Assembly: GCA_013202205.1 (NCBI GenBank)
Contig: JABMSB010000006.1
Coordinates: 1-42,683, forward strand
Direction of reading: 5' to 3'
Length of the DNA stretch: 42,683 bases
From: Candidatus Omnitrophota bacterium
GTDB lineage: Bacteria; Omnitrophota; Gorgyraeia; JABMSB01
The position numbers were made by a program, and so were the translations under genes. Below are positions 3,001 through 12,922 of this stretch, in pieces; positions within the stretch are counted from its first letter, which is position 1, and every line of letters begins with the position of its first letter. The notes beneath the pieces were generated by a model. It was not told where the DNA came from, made no database searches, and saw only the letters and a list, made by a program, of their open reading frames with translations.

Positions 3001-6000
3001 TGCATGAAACCTATTAATGCATATAAAACCGGTGTAAGGCCGCAATCGCCGAACTTCTTTATAGCAAAATAGGCTGTGTGCATAAGCTCGTCATCTGTGA
3101 TCTGTCTACGCGCATCGTCTAAAACAAGCCTATCCTGCTCAAATTCTGTTCTGAGGGCGTGTAATCTTTCCGGGGAAACTCTATGTTCCTCTCCTAATAC
3201 AGAATACGCACCTTCTTCAGTGTAACGATCGGCGTTTACCACCTTCATTATGCCTAAACTGAAATCGACAATCATAAAATTATCGTGGGCCAATTCTATT
3301 ATATCGAAGGCGTGGTCGCGGGCGCGGGCGCCGTATGCATCAAACTTCAGCAGCTTCAATAAGACGAGTGCCATCTGCGATACCGCGGCGCAGCGCACAA
3401 GTTCACTTGTAAGCGGCGCGGTACTGTCGAGGCCGGTGGTAAACAGCTTGATGAGTGGGCGTGCCTTTTTGGGATCGCTGGTCATATATCCTCGTCCCCT
3501 AAGCGACGTTTCTAATCGGCTAAGGAATGAACGCAGCTCTTCGATGTCGCCCGAACCCCTCACAGAAGCCGCCTCGCGCTGCAATCCGCTAAAGTCTATC
3601 TCTGCAAATAGGCGCTCGAATTCCCTATTTATGGCAAGTTGAGATCCTCTCGGATATCCGAGGTCATCGAGGATCTTTCTGAGGTCTCTGCTCTGTCCGG
3701 AGTTCAGCATTCTGAACAACTTGATGCCGCCAAAAATAACTATTGCGGCAATGGCAACCCATGATACAGCTGCCCCCATTCCCACAAACATCACAGGCAT
3801 CCGGGTGCCAGGTTTTGGAGGATCCTTTCTCTCGGGTGCCCTTTTGGCCTTGAGGAGGTCTACGAGACGCACTGTCTCTTTTGCTTCACCCTCCAGTTTT
3901 TCGACAACCTTCGCCATCTCCCTATAGATATAGCGTGTCTGGAATATCTTTCTATCACCTTCACAACATATTTCTATTACCGCACACTCAGCACTAACAT
4001 TATATATTTGTGTTTGTGTTGCTGAATATATCGCCATGGGGCTACAAATTACACGTATAACATCGACAAGATGTCTTAAGCATGCGACCTTTTCACTGGG
4101 AGGAAGATTATCAAATTCTTCTATGGGCACCTCTAGCATCTCTGTGATAAGTTCTGGGGTAACATCTTCTATCCTTAGCGCCCTATCTTCTTCGCTCTCG
4201 TAATAACCTTCTCTATTATCCAATATGTGCTGCCGCAAATCTTCTGCTGTTCTGAGGCTATCCGACACAGGCACAAAGCTAGCAAAGAGTTCATCCAATA
4301 CTTCTTCAAGCGTTTCGGTGTTCCCAATCCAGTCTTCGGCAAACCACTCAGCTTCGGCCTTATCGAGGCCGCTTTCTCTAAAGGTCGTGATTAATTTATC
4401 TCTATATACCTTTTTGTTCTCTATAAGTCTCCTGGCTTGCGCCAATCCTTCCGCAAACTGCTCCTTCCCGCGAGTGGGATCGATAAACCCGGCCGCTATG
4501 AGCGCCTGTCCTATTGCATAAAAAGTCATGAAGTCGCCACGGAAGTGGTCTATAAACCAGAGTGAGCCTTCTGTGTCGCGCAAACAATTGCCCCTATTAA
4601 AATCGAATATCCCTTCTGTAATACACATAGGTATAACACCCTGGCGTTCTTCGTCCGTCATACTGCGGTGATCTTCTATAAGGTGGCTATTGGCGATATA
4701 GCGGACGAATGCATAATCCCCATCACCGACGGTTCCTCTGAGCACCTCAGGACTATGGAACATCCGGGGATCATCTTCATCCAACATCTTATAGAAGTTT
4801 CTAAAGAGCGCACTACCTGCATATTCAATGCTAAATTGGGTAGGCCGTTCTTTCCTTAATGGCTTGCCTATCCACACTGTGTCTTCTGCCACAACGAGTG
4901 GGAAATGTTTGTTTGTGCTGCCACCAGTATAGTAATACCAGATACTGCCATCCTCATCGGCAGTAAGTTCATATGCGGGTTTCTGCTGCAAGAGCTTACT
5001 GTAAGCTTTATCACCCTTTTTGAGCTGTTGATAGTTTACTAATTTGGCACCCGCCTTATGTGGCACTATAGCTGACATCATCCTGGAGGACATTATGCCG
5101 GCTATCCGCTCTGAGATATAGAGACGCATCTTCGTCCAATTACGTGCAATATATATGCCGAGTACCCCCAGCACTAAAATATTTATTACGATAAGAGCGC
5201 CTATGTGCTCTTGCATGAATGGTGCAATCTGAGAAATGAAGTTACCCTGCGCTGCAACAAAGAATGCAGGGAGTTTGGATCCTTTACGAGGCTCTTCTTG
5301 CTTTGGCAGCTCTTCCTTCTCTTTATCATCTTTAACTCCTCCAACCTGTGGCTCTTCTGCAGCTATAGCCGGCGGGTTGAGTCGCGCGCTATATGCTTGA
5401 TCGAGTTTTGCTACACTTGTAGCTGGCGCTAAACCGCCTGTGAGGAGTGCGAGTATTAGGGCTTCCTGGTTGATAAGTTTGTCCAATTGGGCATCCCTGT
5501 CTTTGAGGAGGGATTTGTATCTTGCTTCATTAAAAACCGTAGTGATACTGGGTGATATGACGATGTAGGAGTAATTGCGTGCTTTAAGGAGCTCAGTAAT
5601 GCCGCTTGTGTGAAAACCTCCCGCAATGAGTATTGCCTTGTCCAAATCTTCGGCTTCCATGCGTCTTATGCTGTTTAGGGTCAGGGATTCGTCCCTCTTT
5701 AAGGCATATTCATAGAAGAGCTCCTGGTGTCGGCAAACCTCATCTAAGTAAACCTGGTCAATCTCCTGATCAGGCAGGAATTCATATACCAGGTGTGATA
5801 TGTTTGTTCCTTTGAGTTTTTCGTAAATCTTAAGCTCTTTTCTTGTCAGATTAATCTGGAATAACTTAATGACCAGTCTTATATACCTGCAGGCCATGTC
5901 TAATCTTCTGTCGCTATCCGTCTGGTAGAGATTTTCTTTTGTCTGTTGGTAGAGATTGTCAAGTTCGTCAAGAAGCCTCTCTTGGTTCAGATCTGTATTT

Positions 6001-7016
6001 AGAGCATTGTATTTGAAATAATTGGAGAGGTTCGGATATGCGCTCTCCAGCCTATATTGAACCATCATCTCTGCGAGGTAGCCGTAGTATTCAGATTCTG
6101 TTATCTGGTAGGAATTGAAGAGCGTCGTCTTTCTTAAGAATTGGCCCTTCTGGGTTGCATCGAGCTTTTGGGATAGGTATCCCACGAAGGCATTTAAGTC
6201 CTGCTGGGTTTCATTAAAGTCTATTCTCCCCTCAAGACGCACTATTTCAATGAGTGTGGTGATATTGGAATACCGTGATAGGTCGAGGGTCAGCTCCTCT
6301 GCCTTACCCTTTAGATAGAGCAGGTGTTCGTCTAAGTTGATGCCGCCTTCTTCGTAGAGGGCATATCTATCTCCGAGCTCTTTTATCTTGGGTGAGAGTT
6401 TTTCCTCCAATAGCGGCAGTACTTCTTTTAACTTCTTAAGACGCGCATTATACATGGGCGTCTCTGACTCCTGGTAAACCCTCAGGTTGTCCAGGTATAT
6501 CTCTCCATCCTCAACACCGTAAAGCTTTAAATCCGTATCCGTTATCGCCGCATATTCTGCCCCTACGAGATGGCCATCTTCCATGAAGAACCTTGTGGCC
6601 CGCTCAACCTTCTCCCTGGGCCCCATATTGGCATATTTAAGCGTGTCGCAGAGGCCTTCTGCTCCCTCGTGGAATATCGTATCTATCTTGTAATTCTCTT
6701 TTAAGTGGGCAATTATCTTCGTTGTCAGATCCTGGGCCTCGGTGTGTGTATGCAGATCCTGGATATGGATGACGAGGCGATCGTCACCCTTATAGGTCTC
6801 TGTGATCTGGCCGTACTCTTGGGGAATTGTTACATCATCGATACTAATTTGGCTGGGAGGGAGGCTGGCGCCGTCGTCAACCGCCACGGAAGTCGGGGCA
6901 CCAAATGCCTCCCTCGCCCATGCCAAATCTAATGTCGTAATAAAAAAGACCATAGCCATAATGAGGCTAATGGTCTTTAAATAGGGCCTATATTGTTTAG
7001 ACTGCCATATTAACAT
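1..7016 (-). CDS. Giant multidomain membrane/TPR protein, 3'-truncated by the window edge (>=2,338 codons)
   Basis: Read by hand on the minus strand from ATG 7016-7014 (MLIWQSKQYRPYLKTISLIMAMVFFITTLDLAWA...). Frame checked at 5282, 2942 and the left edge (...RVVRVREGK), all codon starts = 2 mod 3, with no stop met. Only short antisense or out-of-frame ORFs are in the track here. Contains an N-terminal hydrophobic segment, IQDLHTHTEAQ / HEGAEG / GGFHTSG motifs, several TM segments and a TPR block. Confidence 0.9.
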   Translation of the reverse strand, partial: MLIWQSKQYRPYLKTISLIMAMVFFITTLDLAWAREAFGAPTSVAVDDGASLPPSQISIDDVTIPQEYGQITETYKGDDRLVIHIQDLHTHTEAQDLTTKIIAHLKENYKIDTIFHEGAEGLCDTLKYANMGPREKVERATRFFMEDGHLVGAEYAAITDTDLKLYGVEDGEIYLDNLRVYQESETPMYNARLKKLKEVLPLLEEKLSPKIKELGDRYALYEEGGINLDEHLLYLKGKAEELTLDLSRYSNITTLIEIVRLEGRIDFNETQQDLNAFVGYLSQKLDATQKGQFLRKTTLFNSYQITESEYYGYLAEMMVQYRLESAYPNLSNYFKYNALNTDLNQERLLDELDNLYQQTKENLYQTDSDRRLDMACRYIRLVIKLFQINLTRKELKIYEKLKGTNISHLVYEFLPDQEIDQVYLDEVCRHQELFYEYALKRDESLTLNSIRRMEAEDLDKAILIAGGFHTSGITELLKARNYSYIVISPSITTVFNEARYKSLLKDRDAQLDKLINQEALILALLTGGLAPATSVAKLDQAYSARLNPPAIAAEEPQVGGVKDDKEKEELPKQEEPRKGSKLPAFFVAAQGNFISQIAPFMQEHIGALIVINILVLGVLGIYIARNWTKMRLYISERIAGIMSSRMMSAIVPHKAGAKLVNYQQLKKGDKAYSKLLQQKPAYELTADEDGSIWYYYTGGSTNKHFPLVVAEDTVWIGKPLRKERPTQFSIEYAGSALFRNFYKMLDEDDPRMFHSPEVLRGTVGDGDYAFVRYIANSHLIEDHRSMTDEERQGVIPMCITEGIFDFNRGNCLRDTEGSLWFIDHFRGDFMTFYAIGQALIAAGFIDPTRGKEQFAEGLAQARRLIENKKVYRDKLITTFRESGLDKAEAEWFAEDWIGNTETLEEVLDELFASFVPVSDSLRTAEDLRQHILDNREGYYESEEDRALRIEDVTPELITEMLEVPIEEFDNLPPSEKVACLRHLVDVIRVICSPMAIYSATQTQIYNVSAECAVIEICCEGDRKIFQTRYIYREMAKVVEKLEGEAKETVRLVDLLKAKRAPERKDPPKPGTRMPVMFVGMGAAVSWVAIAAIVIFGGIKLFRMLNSGQSRDLRKILDDLGYPRGSQLAINREFERLFAEIDFSGLQREAASVRGSGDIEELRSFLSRLETSLRGRGYMTSDPKKARPLIKLFTTGLDSTAPLTSELVRCAAVSQMALVLLKLLKFDAYGARARDHAFDIIELAHDNFMIVDFSLGIMKVVNADRYTEEGAYSVLGEEHRVSPERLHALRTEFEQDRLVLDDARRQITDDELMHTAYFAIKKFGDCGLTPVLYALIGFMHYNSGDVERAIERYEMSTELDPDDSESRYNLGTIYSSQGDYQKAIEELKIAVGLNPHNTKAHFNLGNVYRDSGDYQNAITAYKESIRKNPEDVDSYVGISAVYVQAGHYPEAIEACQKAIRKDPRNIGARQNLGGIYGMSGNHERACVEYETALRYAPENTELHYNYSMALAMAGDLEGAIAPAQKAVQLDPGNGSYLYHRGVIYDRMGSQMRPKAIESFAMAARVDRSVLGRLQSEDQQLASEVIAYLRRRPGSSTQMPAMFIGMGSIGILSVFVAAIFIIGRSLVVRRRDALEPALISKDIFGTLAIIGAAIMLTIFTGMPQFSWMSGSIATAGSSVEEDRQLRITPLDLAVQAEDRQIYYLPGQYGEKVGVTDNVRDKLARMASAEEVTMSKDIADWVSVTTERWPVDSRYSILDEASKLRRYGSNTVAALMAAAITKMRGRDAIRIVSSHPVIEGVGIDVVFDPESGKVLKGAHRLAIVKGGDQVEIKEQSIEAGDIKINGIGQSRTKVEIDFPGAGVTYEATVETQGVPMLISAANHRDLNFERIAFMGVSAAPQERRIITEMDLIEDNRILFINDYSAMGDDLGRFTSLFGLAFVKEGGKVCLKSVNNQIVLEATYPARVPMQLPVYFIYTRLAELLTDDEIGRLFPARERHEITDREIVRLVESGDVDEIDALRKGHWEMCAHPQICSYTDEYLSSLEARGVSKDHHVHIHPRSRARTHGWEDRLVLAAGITEGADRDFLLSALVNNIGVPSDVDFDSWHKGTNEEGLHGLLYHKTRVSLDDFSHEQEAETHLAIYRKAPQEVRSRIDGLYRYIFNDELSRRFVKLAEIRRDRGAEALGVGEEVAVQLYLSKLKELFQRLDEMKMADEKISDISPEQKTGSVAAMPGALKQTVVMPAAYMAMGTAFSTVAVLAIVVFFAWRWLRTKKDSRVQAATPARRGDLLSIRLPAIFVTLLSLLPFFGRLAAGAEGNELSYFDSNTGIYYRVVRVREGK
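2320..3060 (-). other. TPR array (about 6-7 repeats) within the giant ORF
   Basis: Consecutive 34-aa units such as SRYNLGTIYSSQGDYQKAIEELKIAVGLNPHN, AHFNLGNVYRDSGDYQNAITAYKESIRKNPED, SYVGISAVYVQAGHYPEAIEACQKAIRKDPRN. Confidence 0.9.
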
Positions 7017-7109: not shown

Positions 7110-7149
7110 CACAAAAGAAGACCGAGCTGCATTTTTTCAGGCAGCTCGG
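7110..7149 (-). terminator. Intrinsic terminator-like hairpin overlapping the riboswitch aptamer 3' end
   Basis: Minus strand CCGAGCTGC-CTGAAAAAAT-GCAGCTCGG (perfect 9-bp stem) followed by TCTTCTTTTGT. Confidence 0.75.
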
Positions 7150-7245
7150 CTATCTATAAAATGGGTGCGTGGGTGGTCCTTCACCCTTTTTCCAGATCCG
7201 TGGCTTTGCGCCCCCACCTCACGATGGGTTCGCCGTTATCTGGTA
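7140..7245 (-). ncRNA. GEMM-family (cyclic-di-GMP-I-like) riboswitch aptamer
   Basis: Minus strand: AGATAACGGCGAACCCATCGTGAGGTGGGGGCGCAAAGCCACGGATCT...AGATAGCCGAGCTGCC. Hallmarks seen: GGC-GAA-CC ... GCGCAAAGCC core, P2 CCCATC-GTGA-GGTGGG capped by a GNRA tetraloop, second stem ATCT/AGAT, and 3' TAGCCG..CTGCC. Confidence 0.8.
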
Positions 7246-7286
7246 CTTTCATTCCCTATATCACTTATAACTTATTTAACCCTTTA

Positions 7287-7315
7287 AGTATACCCTATAA
7301 TAGGCAATTTGTCAA
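7287..7315 (-). promoter_or_regulatory. Sigma70-type promoter for riboswitch/giant ORF
   Basis: Minus strand TTGACA (7315-7310), 17-nt spacer, TATACT (7292-7287). Confidence 0.75.
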
Positions 7316-8398: not shown

Positions 8399-9719
8399 CT
8401 ACAAGGTCATATTCGAGCGTATCGGTTATTTTGACCGGTACGAAATCGCCGGACCTTAGCTGTTTCTTGCTATTTACGTAGACCGTTCCGTCTACCTCGG
8501 GCGCATCGGCCTGGGTTCTTCCGAGAATAAATGGACTATTCTTTTCTCTCTTCTCGTCTATTAGAACCTCTATCGTCTTCCCTAGAAATTGGTTATTATT
8601 TTCTACTGATATATCCTGCTGAAGCCGCATCAGCTCATCGAATCGTTCCTTTTTTACCTTTTCGCTGACCTGTTTTGGAAATTTATATGCCGGGCTCCCT
8701 TCTTCGCGCGAATAGGTAAATATTCCCATCCTCTCAAACTTCATATCGCTGACGAAATTACGCAACTCTTCGAATTCTTTGTCCGTCTCACCGGGAAATC
8801 CCACAATAAATGTCGTCCTTATTGAAAGTTCGGGAATGGCCTTGCGAACTTTCTTAATAAGCACCTCGATATCTTTTCTTGCTACCTTGCGCTTCATGCG
8901 CTTGAGGACTGTATCGCTTATGTGCTGAAAGGGTATATCGAGATATTTGCAAATAACCTCTTCATTGGCCACGAGATCTATCAGGCCGTCTTCATAGTGT
9001 GCGGGGTGTGTGTATAAGAGGCGTATCCAGGGTGTGCTTTTAAGTTTTACAAGACGTTTCAGCAGAGTCGTAAGTTCAGGATTACCAGACCTGTCAACTC
9101 CATAATTTGTTATGTCCTGCCCGATAAGATTTATTTCGGACAGCTTCCGAGATTCAGCAGCCATCTCGACTTCCCTGACGACCGAATCTATGGGCCTTGA
9201 ACGCAGTTTACCCCGCAATTTGGGGATTACGCAATAAGAGCAGTTGTTGCTGCACCCTTCTGAAAGTTTTACATAGATATAATGTGGTGGTGTAAGGCTA
9301 ATGCGTGGTGAGGTATCGCTATAAAGGTATTCGGGGGTCCGCGATATGATCTTGGCGCGCTTGCCTTTGAGGATCTTCTTTATCAGCTCGGGTATCTTTT
9401 CGACATCCCCCACACCCAGGAAACCATCCACCGCCTTTAGCGTTCCATTCAACTCGCTTCTGTAGCGCTGGGGCAGACAGCCGGCTACCACTATAGCTTT
9501 GAGATCTCCTCTTTTTTTGAGCTCCTCTGCCTCGAGGATGATTTCAATAGACTCTTCCTTCGCATCCTTTATGAATGAGCATGTATTGATGAGCGCAATA
9601 TCACAACCTTCGACACCTTCAGATACAGAGAATCCATCGTTACGAAGAAGTCCCATCATAACTTCTGTATCAACCTGATTCCTCGGACAACCTAAGCTTA
9701 TAATACCTATCTTGGTCAT
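8373..9719 (-). CDS. rimO: Ribosomal protein S12 methylthiotransferase
   Basis: ISLGCPRNQVDTEVMMG, radical SAM SEGCSNNCSYCVIPKLRG, C-terminal TRAM-like region. Confidence 0.93.
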   Translation of the reverse strand: MTKIGIISLGCPRNQVDTEVMMGLLRNDGFSVSEGVEGCDIALINTCSFIKDAKEESIEIILEAEELKKRGDLKAIVVAGCLPQRYRSELNGTLKAVDGFLGVGDVEKIPELIKKILKGKRAKIISRTPEYLYSDTSPRISLTPPHYIYVKLSEGCSNNCSYCVIPKLRGKLRSRPIDSVVREVEMAAESRKLSEINLIGQDITNYGVDRSGNPELTTLLKRLVKLKSTPWIRLLYTHPAHYEDGLIDLVANEEVICKYLDIPFQHISDTVLKRMKRKVARKDIEVLIKKVRKAIPELSIRTTFIVGFPGETDKEFEELRNFVSDMKFERMGIFTYSREEGSPAYKFPKQVSEKVKKERFDELMRLQQDISVENNNQFLGKTIEVLIDEKREKNSPFILGRTQADAPEVDGTVYVNSKKQLRSGDFVPVKITDTLEYDLVGELYEPGK

Positions 9720-9727
9720 TATAAAAC

Positions 9728-9774
9728 GAGGACGCAGTATTCAGCAGATCATCTGATGCTGAAATCACGTCCTC
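9728..9774 (-). promoter_or_regulatory. Large hairpin just upstream of rimO
   Basis: GAGGACG...TTCAGCA...TGCTGAA...CGTCCTC nested inverted repeats (9728-9734/9768-9774 and 9740-9746/9757-9763), followed on the minus strand by GTTTTAT and the rimO ATG. Confidence 0.55.
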
Positions 9775-9789
9775 CTCCTCTTGAAATGG

Positions 9790-10611
9790 CTATTCTTTTA
9801 TCTTCATCCCTTTTCGGGTAATTACTATATTCTTTACAACACCCTTCCCCGGCGAACCTAGTGATGTGCCGTTTAGTACGAGCTCCATCTTGTCGGCCTT
9901 ACCTGTCCACAGGGTTATCTCATCATTCGCCTTCCAGGCCTCTACACTACCCTTGGGCAGGACATTACGAAATATGATCTTATCATCCGACTTCACCTGC
10001 AGCCAAACATCATCGAATGTCTTGACTATCAGCGTCAAGGGATCGTTCTTTGGTATGGAGATTTCCGGAGCCACGACCGGGGCAACCTTTGCCATCCTCG
10101 TTTTAGTCACGGGTGCTTCTGTCTTTACCGGTTCGGCCTTCTTCTTAGAGATGATGAGCTTCTCTTTACTCTCTTTGTCAATCTTTAGCGCTATGGCCTT
10201 CGCCCTTCTCTCCCTGGTAATGGTTGCTATCTTTTTTACGCCAACAACAGATCCGCTTATAACAAGAACCAGAAATAGCACCACCGCCGCTGCCGCAATA
10301 GGCACCCTAAACTGTTTTAGTTTAAGCGCCCAATCTATTCTTTCTTCTTTCTTTATGACTATGACCGGCTCGCTCTGTTTAGGGCCTTTCTTTTCGTAAT
10401 CCTTAAGGAGTTTCTCTGTGTCTAACCCCAAAAATTCACTGTATCTTTTTAAAAAACTCTTTGCATATACCGGGCTCATCTCCGCATCCATCTTGTTCGA
10501 TTCCAGGGTCTCCAGTACGTGGTGATGGATATGCGTTGTCCGCTGCACCTCTTCGATAGATAATCCCTTGCCCTTCCTGGCCTTCCTCAGCCTCTCACCG
10601 ATATTCTCCAT
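9790..10611 (-). CDS. RodZ-like HTH / single-TM / DUF4115 protein
   Basis: N-terminal HTH (GERLRKARKGKGLSIEEVQRTTHIHHHVLETLE), one TM segment, C-terminal DUF4115-like domain. Confidence 0.85.
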   Translation of the reverse strand: MENIGERLRKARKGKGLSIEEVQRTTHIHHHVLETLESNKMDAEMSPVYAKSFLKRYSEFLGLDTEKLLKDYEKKGPKQSEPVIVIKKEERIDWALKLKQFRVPIAAAAVVLFLVLVISGSVVGVKKIATITRERRAKAIALKIDKESKEKLIISKKKAEPVKTEAPVTKTRMAKVAPVVAPEISIPKNDPLTLIVKTFDDVWLQVKSDDKIIFRNVLPKGSVEAWKANDEITLWTGKADKMELVLNGTSLGSPGKGVVKNIVITRKGMKIKE

Positions 10612-10654
10612 AACAGCTTCTCCTTAAAACTGATTTTCGTGATCGCCCTTGAGA

Positions 10655-12922
10655 TTATACCTGATTCGTCTCTTCCGTCACCCCAACGTTATCATTATCT
10701 ATATTTTCCGTATCGATAAGGATGTCTCTCGGTTTTGATCCTTGATACGGTCCGACTATGCCCTCATCCTCCATCATGTCTATAATCCTTGCCGCGCGTG
10801 TATAGCCTAACCCCAGCCTCCTCTGAAGCATCGAAACAGAGGCCTGCTTTGTCTGCAATATTACACGGACTGCCTCTTCATAGACTTCATCCTTTTCGAA
10901 TTGTTTAAATGCGCCTTTCTTGGTCTGGGACTGGAGTATCTCTTCATTGTAATCTGAACTCTGTTGCGCCTTTATAAACTCCACGACACGCTCAAGCTCT
11001 TTATCGGATATCAAAGCGCCCTGCGCGCGGATCGGTTTTGAATTACCCGGCTCCATAAATAAGAGGTCACCCTTACCCAATAATTTATCCGCGCCGTTCA
11101 TGTCGAGCACTGTGCGCGAATCTACCTTCGAGGCAACTTTAAATGATATGCGCGAAGGGAAGTTGGCTTTAATTACACCTGTTATTACGTCGACCGATGG
11201 GCGCTGCGTGGCCAGGACAAGGTGTATCCCTACCGCTCTCGACAATTGCGCAAGCCGTGTTATGGCATTCTCTATCTCCTGCTGTGCAACCACCATCAGA
11301 TCGGCAAGCTCATCTATGATCACTACTATATAAGGCATCTTCTCGGCAAGCTGTTCTTCCTCCCCTACCATAATGGTCTTGAGATCTTTTGCCTTTATCT
11401 TTTCGTTATATGAATCTATATTGCGTGCTGCAACCGCTGCCAATGCCTTGTAGCGTCTCTCCATTTCGTTAACTACCCAATCGAGGGCAGCTGAGACTTT
11501 CTTTGCTTCGGTAACTACGGGGCATAGCAGGTGCGGCAGCCCATTGAATAGCGCCAACTCTACCATCTTTGGATCGACCATAAGGAACTTCACCTCATCA
11601 GGCCTTGCAGTAAAGAGCATAGACGTGATGAGCGCATTTACACAGACCGTCTTCCCTGATCCGGTAGCGCCGGCTATCAAAAGGTGCGGCATATCCCCTA
11701 AATCAGCTATTATGGGTGCGCCCGAGATCTCCTTACCTATTATGATCTTCAGCTTAGACGTTTCTGACTTATAATCATTCGTCTCCAGAATCTCTCTGAT
11801 ATAGACGAATACGCTTGTGCTGTTTGGTATCTCAACACCTACGGTACCCTTGCCAGGTAAGGGTGCTACTATCCTCACGCTCTGGGCCTTCATGGCAAGC
11901 GATATATCATCGCTCAATGATGAGATTCGGTTTACCTTGACACCCGGGGCGGGTTCAAGCTCATAGCGTGTTATGACAGGGCCCCTATTAACCCTGACGA
12001 CGCGCACCTCGATACCAAAGTCCATAAGGGTCTCTTCGAGTATGCGTGAATTGATCTTTAAATTGTCTTCTATCTTCCTCTCTTCAAAAGGCGGCGGTGA
12101 ATCGAGAAGATCAATTGTCGGCAGCTTATAGTCATCCATCGATCTTGGTTCCTTCTTCACCTTCGATACGGCTGCCGTACGCCCTGTCTTCGGCTTCTCG
12201 ACCCTTTTGCTTATCTTCGGGATATTAATCTTTACTTCAGGTTCCGATCGAACCTCTTTCTGGTTTATAATAAAATCCGGTTGTTCCGCCTCTCGTCTAA
12301 CCTTTAAGGAGGCGCCTCGTTGCGCCGTAGCGGTCCTGCGCCTTGATATATTCAGGGTGGGCTTTGGAATCCTCAGCCTTGGCAGGCGGATCTTTCCCTT
12401 AAAGACCTTAAGCAAAAGTGTGAAGAAATCCCATACCAGAAATTCTGTGGCAAGAAGGAGTGATAGAGACAAGACGGTTATCAATATCACATGGGTACCA
12501 ACATTATTGAAATACCCGAGCAGGAATCTCGATGAAATATATCCGATAAATCCACCGCTTGCGAATTTTGCATCCGGGGACCCTCCGGTATTTATATAAA
12601 GAAGTGAAGATGCTGCTGCAAAGAGGAGTGCTACCCCCACGACCTTGACGTATAATTTCTGGATATTGCCACTCGTCAAACGACTGATCGCCCACAAGAA
12701 CGTTAATAACGGAATGAGATATGCGGCACGGCCGACACCCTTAAAGAGTATGTCAGAGGACCATGCGCCGATCGTTCCGATGAGATTTTCAGGCCTGATA
12801 TTATTTGGGTAGGCATTGATCGATAGATCCGCGGGATTGTATGAAATGAGACTTAAGAAGACAAATACGCTTAAGGCGATGAAGACTATCGCCCAGATCT
12901 TACGTTTATGAGTTTCCTCCAT
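10655..12922 (-). CDS. ftsK: DNA translocase FtsK/SpoIIIE
   Basis: 4TM N-terminus, Walker A LLIAGATGSGKTVCVN, Walker B YIVVIIDELADLM, C-terminal gamma winged helix. Confidence 0.95.
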   Translation of the reverse strand: MEETHKRKIWAIVFIALSVFVFLSLISYNPADLSINAYPNNIRPENLIGTIGAWSSDILFKGVGRAAYLIPLLTFLWAISRLTSGNIQKLYVKVVGVALLFAAASSLLYINTGGSPDAKFASGGFIGYISSRFLLGYFNNVGTHVILITVLSLSLLLATEFLVWDFFTLLLKVFKGKIRLPRLRIPKPTLNISRRRTATAQRGASLKVRREAEQPDFIINQKEVRSEPEVKINIPKISKRVEKPKTGRTAAVSKVKKEPRSMDDYKLPTIDLLDSPPPFEERKIEDNLKINSRILEETLMDFGIEVRVVRVNRGPVITRYELEPAPGVKVNRISSLSDDISLAMKAQSVRIVAPLPGKGTVGVEIPNSTSVFVYIREILETNDYKSETSKLKIIIGKEISGAPIIADLGDMPHLLIAGATGSGKTVCVNALITSMLFTARPDEVKFLMVDPKMVELALFNGLPHLLCPVVTEAKKVSAALDWVVNEMERRYKALAAVAARNIDSYNEKIKAKDLKTIMVGEEEQLAEKMPYIVVIIDELADLMVVAQQEIENAITRLAQLSRAVGIHLVLATQRPSVDVITGVIKANFPSRISFKVASKVDSRTVLDMNGADKLLGKGDLLFMEPGNSKPIRAQGALISDKELERVVEFIKAQQSSDYNEEILQSQTKKGAFKQFEKDEVYEEAVRVILQTKQASVSMLQRRLGLGYTRAARIIDMMEDEGIVGPYQGSKPRDILIDTENIDNDNVGVTEETNQV

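Follow-up and report, generated by a model that had tools for sequence, protein, structure and literature searches.

Which signal governs expression of the very large open reading frame that fills one end of the window (the whole 42,683-nt Omnitrophota contig stretch analysed), and by what mechanism? Members of the Omnitrophota are almost entirely uncultured and carry giant genes without known function, and a riboswitch whose ligand can be assigned offers a direct, testable way to learn when such a gene is switched on. The original prediction placed a GEMM/c-di-GMP-I-like element in the leader of this gene, and its class, overlapping terminator and ON logic are borne out by covariance models, by the conserved residues, by folding and by a comparison with relatives. 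With a probability of about 85%, we assign the leader to the class-I c-di-GMP riboswitches with a transcription-terminator expression platform operating as an ON switch. The element is a genuine member of class I with an ordinary mechanism; its host and the gene behind it are what is uncommon. The switch type is already known, and its use in the poorly studied Omnitrophota appears undescribed: no publication pairing the phylum with riboswitches was found in a literature search that covered few subscription journals.

Organization of the leader

Promoter, aptamer, terminator, a short reading frame and the large gene follow one another on the minus strand, with the following features:

7315-7287, minus strand: sigma-70-type promoter, TTGACA (7315-7310), 17-nt spacer, TATACT (7292-7287)
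7243-7136, minus strand: class-I c-di-GMP (GEMM-I) aptamer, identified by Rfam, alignment, residue check and covariation
7233-7208, minus strand: P2 hairpin with a GUGA tetraloop (7222-7219) and the pairs G21-C46 and C22-G45
7205-7141, minus strand: P3 region, interrupted by a long insertion, with its 3' strand within 7154-7141
7243-7192, minus strand: putative anti-aptamer pairing in the OFF fold, CCAGAU (7243-7238) with AUCUGG (7197-7192), predicted in the full-length minimum-energy structure
7150-7113, minus strand: intrinsic terminator, in which 7150-7141 pairs with 7130-7121 around a loop at 7140-7131, followed by the tail CTTCTTTT (7120-7113)
7087-7010, minus strand: 25-codon reading frame with a good Shine-Dalgarno sequence, AAGGAG (7100-7095); its stop overlaps the start of the large frame by 7 nt
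7016-3, minus strand: regulated gene for at least 2338 aa, running off the contig end; the product has a signal anchor at its N terminus, a domain with no more than a hint of ChaN/EreA resemblance, a TPR block and six more TM-like segments

The anticipated TTGACA-N17-TATACT promoter is present, matches the consensus at 11 of 12 positions and lies 43 nt upstream of the aptamer. The same layout, TTGACA-N17-TATANT with 11-12 of 12 matches, precedes the other GEMM-I copies of this genome; the comparison covers copies with readable upstream sequence, takes the tandem pair by its first member and reads the promoter of the copy on contig C12 from the overlapping contig C11. Genes with Pfam domains of PgpA, a CDP-alcohol phosphatidyltransferase and a radical-SAM/TRAM protein are located upstream on the same strand. 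The pgpA gene is situated just before the leader, and the consensus promoter lies between it and the aptamer. The 25-codon frame, for which no relative was found in the fetched loci, may be translationally coupled to the large gene, judging from the overlap. Its Shine-Dalgarno sequence is better than that of the large frame.

Aptamer family and conserved residues

Two Rfam models recognize the aptamer above their gathering scores: c-di-GMP-I-GGC (RF03167; 7243-7136, 63.5 bits, E 8e-13, gathering score 59) and c-di-GMP-I (RF01051; 58.0 bits, gathering score 35). The predicted match to RF01051 and related models was thus obtained, although the best scorer is RF03167 rather than RF01051 itself. 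Rfam GEMM-I searches of 14 control genomes returned no matches.

Eighteen class-I positions were checked, most of them from the published list of conserved residues (PMC3764141), located through an alignment of 26 aptamers from Omnitrophota, and 17 agree in the window copy. These include the ligand-contact residues G20 (7234), A47 (7207) and C92 (7141), as well as C22 (7232), A25, G32, A35, G42, C44, G45, A48, A49, C59, G79 and G83 (7150). The sole mismatch is at position 23, a usual and elsewhere nearly invariant A that is not a ligand contact: it is A in 24 of the 26 aligned aptamers and G (7231) in the window copy, which may lower affinity. The GNRA cap expected on P2 is there as GUGA, while P3 lacks the canonical receptor of the CCUAAG/UAUGG type seen in another copy of the same genome; P1 comprises only ~3 pairs. 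Covariation across the 26 aptamers is extensive, with 18 of 20 pairs changed on both sides and 91% of cells paired compared to 73% in shuffles; the structure was derived from the same alignment, so that the slid controls lean in its favour. None of 500 shuffles reached either the paired-cell percentage or the covariation score of the alignment.

Ligand specificity

The ligand class had been considered unassignable by eye. This part of the prediction does not stand, as positions 20, 47 and 92 allow a proposal: with G20, A47 and C92 all present, c-di-GMP is the most likely ligand, in preference to 3',3'-cGAMP, which requires A20. In Vc2 these three residues contact the ligand, and the Vc1 aptamer is a case in which conserved contacts do not ensure that binding is tight (PMC4744006). 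The genome studied here has genes for GGDEF proteins carrying the canonical Asp. We infer that c-di-GMP is what this RNA binds in its host.

The higher score of RF03167, 63.5 against 58.0 bits, would be explained if the aptamer were a c-di-GMP-I-GGC variant, whose ligand may be other than c-di-GMP. However, the Rfam consensus of RF03167 (CGCGAA) places a G at the A47 site, and A47 is kept in the window copy and in all 26 aligned aptamers, so the label given by bit score should not be taken to indicate an altered ligand site. Here the middle G of the name GGC is presumed to be the position-47 G. The score advantage more likely arises from the short P3 without a tetraloop receptor. We therefore rejected the GGC ligand class on position 47 and regard it as very unlikely. 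Other aptamers of the class that exceed the RF03167 cut-off (L018-L046) also keep A47, and automated annotation by bit score may mislabel their ligand class.

The possibility of a GEMM-Ib riboswitch for 3',3'-cGAMP draws on the shared fold, on the A20 of another copy in the same genome (contig C31) and on one GGDEF protein with Asn at the position that sets Hypr selectivity. It is opposed by the residue at nucleotide 20, the determinant of ligand choice: A is the cGAMP form, and the A20G substitution in Gmet_0970 turns cGAMP selectivity into c-di-GMP selectivity (PMC6456294). The window copy has G20, and on this position the cGAMP class was rejected as the least probable of the alternatives considered.

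Terminator and mode of switching

A perfect 9-bp terminator stem with a U-rich tail had been proposed to share a strand with the aptamer. The hairpin and the overlap were both recovered, but the stem has ten pairs, nine Watson-Crick and one G-U, around a 10-nt loop, and the U-tract is interrupted by a C and not ideal. A simple terminator scanner with a loop limit of 8 did not list it. Only one of 2000 dinucleotide shuffles of the leader yielded a perfect stem of at least 9 pairs with a T-rich tail. The 3' strand of the aptamer at 7150-7141 is at the same time the 5' arm of the terminator. Since this arm holds G83 and C92, the ligand-bound aptamer and the terminator both need these nucleotides, and an ON switch is predicted.

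Folding supports this logic, giving two mutually exclusive states. A transcript that ends before the 3' arm of the terminator folds as the P2/P3 aptamer (-38.8 kcal/mol), whereas the full transcript favours the terminator, at -61.1 compared to -48.4 kcal/mol with the aptamer pairs enforced; these energies are thermodynamic and describe the RNA without ligand or kinetics. The folding energy of the full leader is 4.7 standard deviations lower than that of shuffled versions. In the OFF fold, the CCAGAU/AUCUGG pairing, a 6-bp match that is weak taken alone, would dismantle P1 and P3 together.

According to the proposed mechanism, transcription would start just downstream of 7287. Binding of c-di-GMP to the nascent aptamer would keep P3 and C92 in the ligand-bound fold, leaving the terminator 5' arm unavailable, and polymerase would read into the large frame. 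Without ligand, the 3' half would displace P3, the terminator would form and transcription would stop near 7113. We infer the direction of the response from this arrangement.

The G at position 23, the weak P1 and the imperfect U-tract could also point to a real aptamer fold that has become degenerate and non-regulatory; the A23G change, for example, would abolish binding, and the hairpin would simply terminate transcription from pgpA, which lies just upstream on the same strand. However, a consensus promoter separates pgpA from the aptamer, and the exact sharing of a strand between aptamer and terminator is a feature that drift would probably erode. Loss of function is therefore considered quite improbable, and the ON riboswitch is the reading we retain.

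The regulated protein

The downstream gene encodes a large multi-pass membrane protein that belongs to a phylum-wide family. It had been described as a giant surface-type protein; the size is correct, whereas the surface-type designation is replaced by this assignment, and no adhesin domain was found in the protein. Named relatives are nearly all from Omnitrophota. Giant reading frames have been described in this phylum (PMC10066038), in an article whose text gave no match to c-di-GMP or riboswitch in a term search. Of 117 class genomes, 59 carry the N-terminal domain (window 5397-7016), within open frames that reach 12,701 aa. The domain has a good AlphaFold model (mean pLDDT 81), no Pfam match in the window copy and no significant match in a PDB fold search (best E 0.23). 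Weak fold matches include EreC, HopBA1 and ChaN, and PF04187 was detected in four relatives with a best E of 0.035. An affiliation with the ChaN/EreA-like proteins of the Tiki superfamily is only a guess from these matches.

Four repeated modules, each consisting of MP/LP-x-x-F/Y, a hydrophobic stretch and basic residues, are found between the domains of the large protein. A role of such repeats (MPxxF/Y plus TM plus basic residues) as a sorting signal was dropped, as they are absent from the other giants examined.

No GEMM-I aptamer was found upstream of relatives of the large protein in the fetched flanks, some of them cut by contig ends, of up to 99 partly redundant loci. A role of the riboswitch as a conserved companion of this giant-protein family was accordingly rejected, and within the sampled loci the link between the two is confined to this lineage.

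Distribution of GEMM-I in the genome and the phylum

RF01051 has nine matches in this genome, corresponding to seven distinct copies, because contigs C3/C19 and C11/C12 repeat the same copies on overlapping contig ends. Copies outside the window include:

Contig C92 (L047:11531-11641): ~240 nt upstream of a gene for GTP-type PEP carboxykinase (9508-11289)
Contig C3: tandem pair; the first gene downstream encodes a small secreted protein
Contig C31 (L049:4841-4928, plus strand): A20, the cGAMP-type determinant; precedes a 453-aa protein and is followed by a hairpin with a T tract
Contig C12: a group of small proteins first downstream, then a response regulator
Contig C66 (L051:9335-9457, minus strand): GEMM-I-like, C20, insertion in P2; a GspF/PilC-type gene further downstream

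Second-messenger control of central metabolism is possible through the copy on contig C92. The genome has six GGDEF matches, of which one (C68:29198-29674, L087) carries Asn (GHESGN) at the Hypr selectivity position, which is Asp in canonical enzymes and Ser in Hypr enzymes (PMC6456294).

GEMM-I was detected in 101 of 117 sampled genomes of the class, with up to 20 matches per genome; given this abundance, much of the regulon is readable from sequence alone. A strict core pattern applied to 246 genomes found G20 cores in 120, A20 in 16, C20 in 12 and U20 in 3. When P2 complementarity was judged by eye, the majority of the A20 matches and about three of the C20 ones looked like aptamers, whereas none with U20 did. 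C20 cores whose P2 is convincing turn up again in a few genomes of the class (G089, G167 and G202).

Behind the 40 sampled aptamers lie genes for pilin-like proteins, for a small family that recurs and for further secreted proteins, as well as two very large reading frames (at least 2115 aa). The small family, with the sequence RVVTFLNRxEVDFLDK, repeatedly comes directly after a GEMM-I aptamer, in members of different families within the class (L050 on contig C12, L204, L208, L209, L214, L224, L233, L234 and L235). Tentatively, and with odds that we place well below even, a phylum-wide GEMM-I set, with G20 c-di-GMP-type, A20 cGAMP-type and rare C20-type members together in one small genome, may constitute a main route of cyclic-dinucleotide control over pilins, secreted proteins and some giant proteins in Omnitrophota.

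Comparison with known systems

The window aptamer resembles RF01051 and Vc2 of Vibrio cholerae in its P2/P3 fold, the G20/A47/C92 contacts, C44 and G83, and the GNRA loop on P2; it differs by the G at position 23, a GUGA loop without the usual receptor motif, a long P3 insertion and the Omnitrophota host. The c-di-GMP-I-GGC model (RF03167) gives it the best bit score and shares with it a short P3 core without receptor motif, but the window copy has A47 where that consensus has G. The GEMM-Ib 3',3'-cGAMP riboswitches of Geobacter, which control envelope, cytochrome and pilus genes and are often induced by their ligand (PMC6456294), have the same fold, whereas the window copy contains G20 instead of A20. 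As in Clostridioides difficile (PMC6200980), there are several riboswitches per genome, placing a second messenger over many genes; in contrast to that system, the gene controlled here encodes a large multi-pass membrane protein without recognized adhesin domains, in a different phylum.
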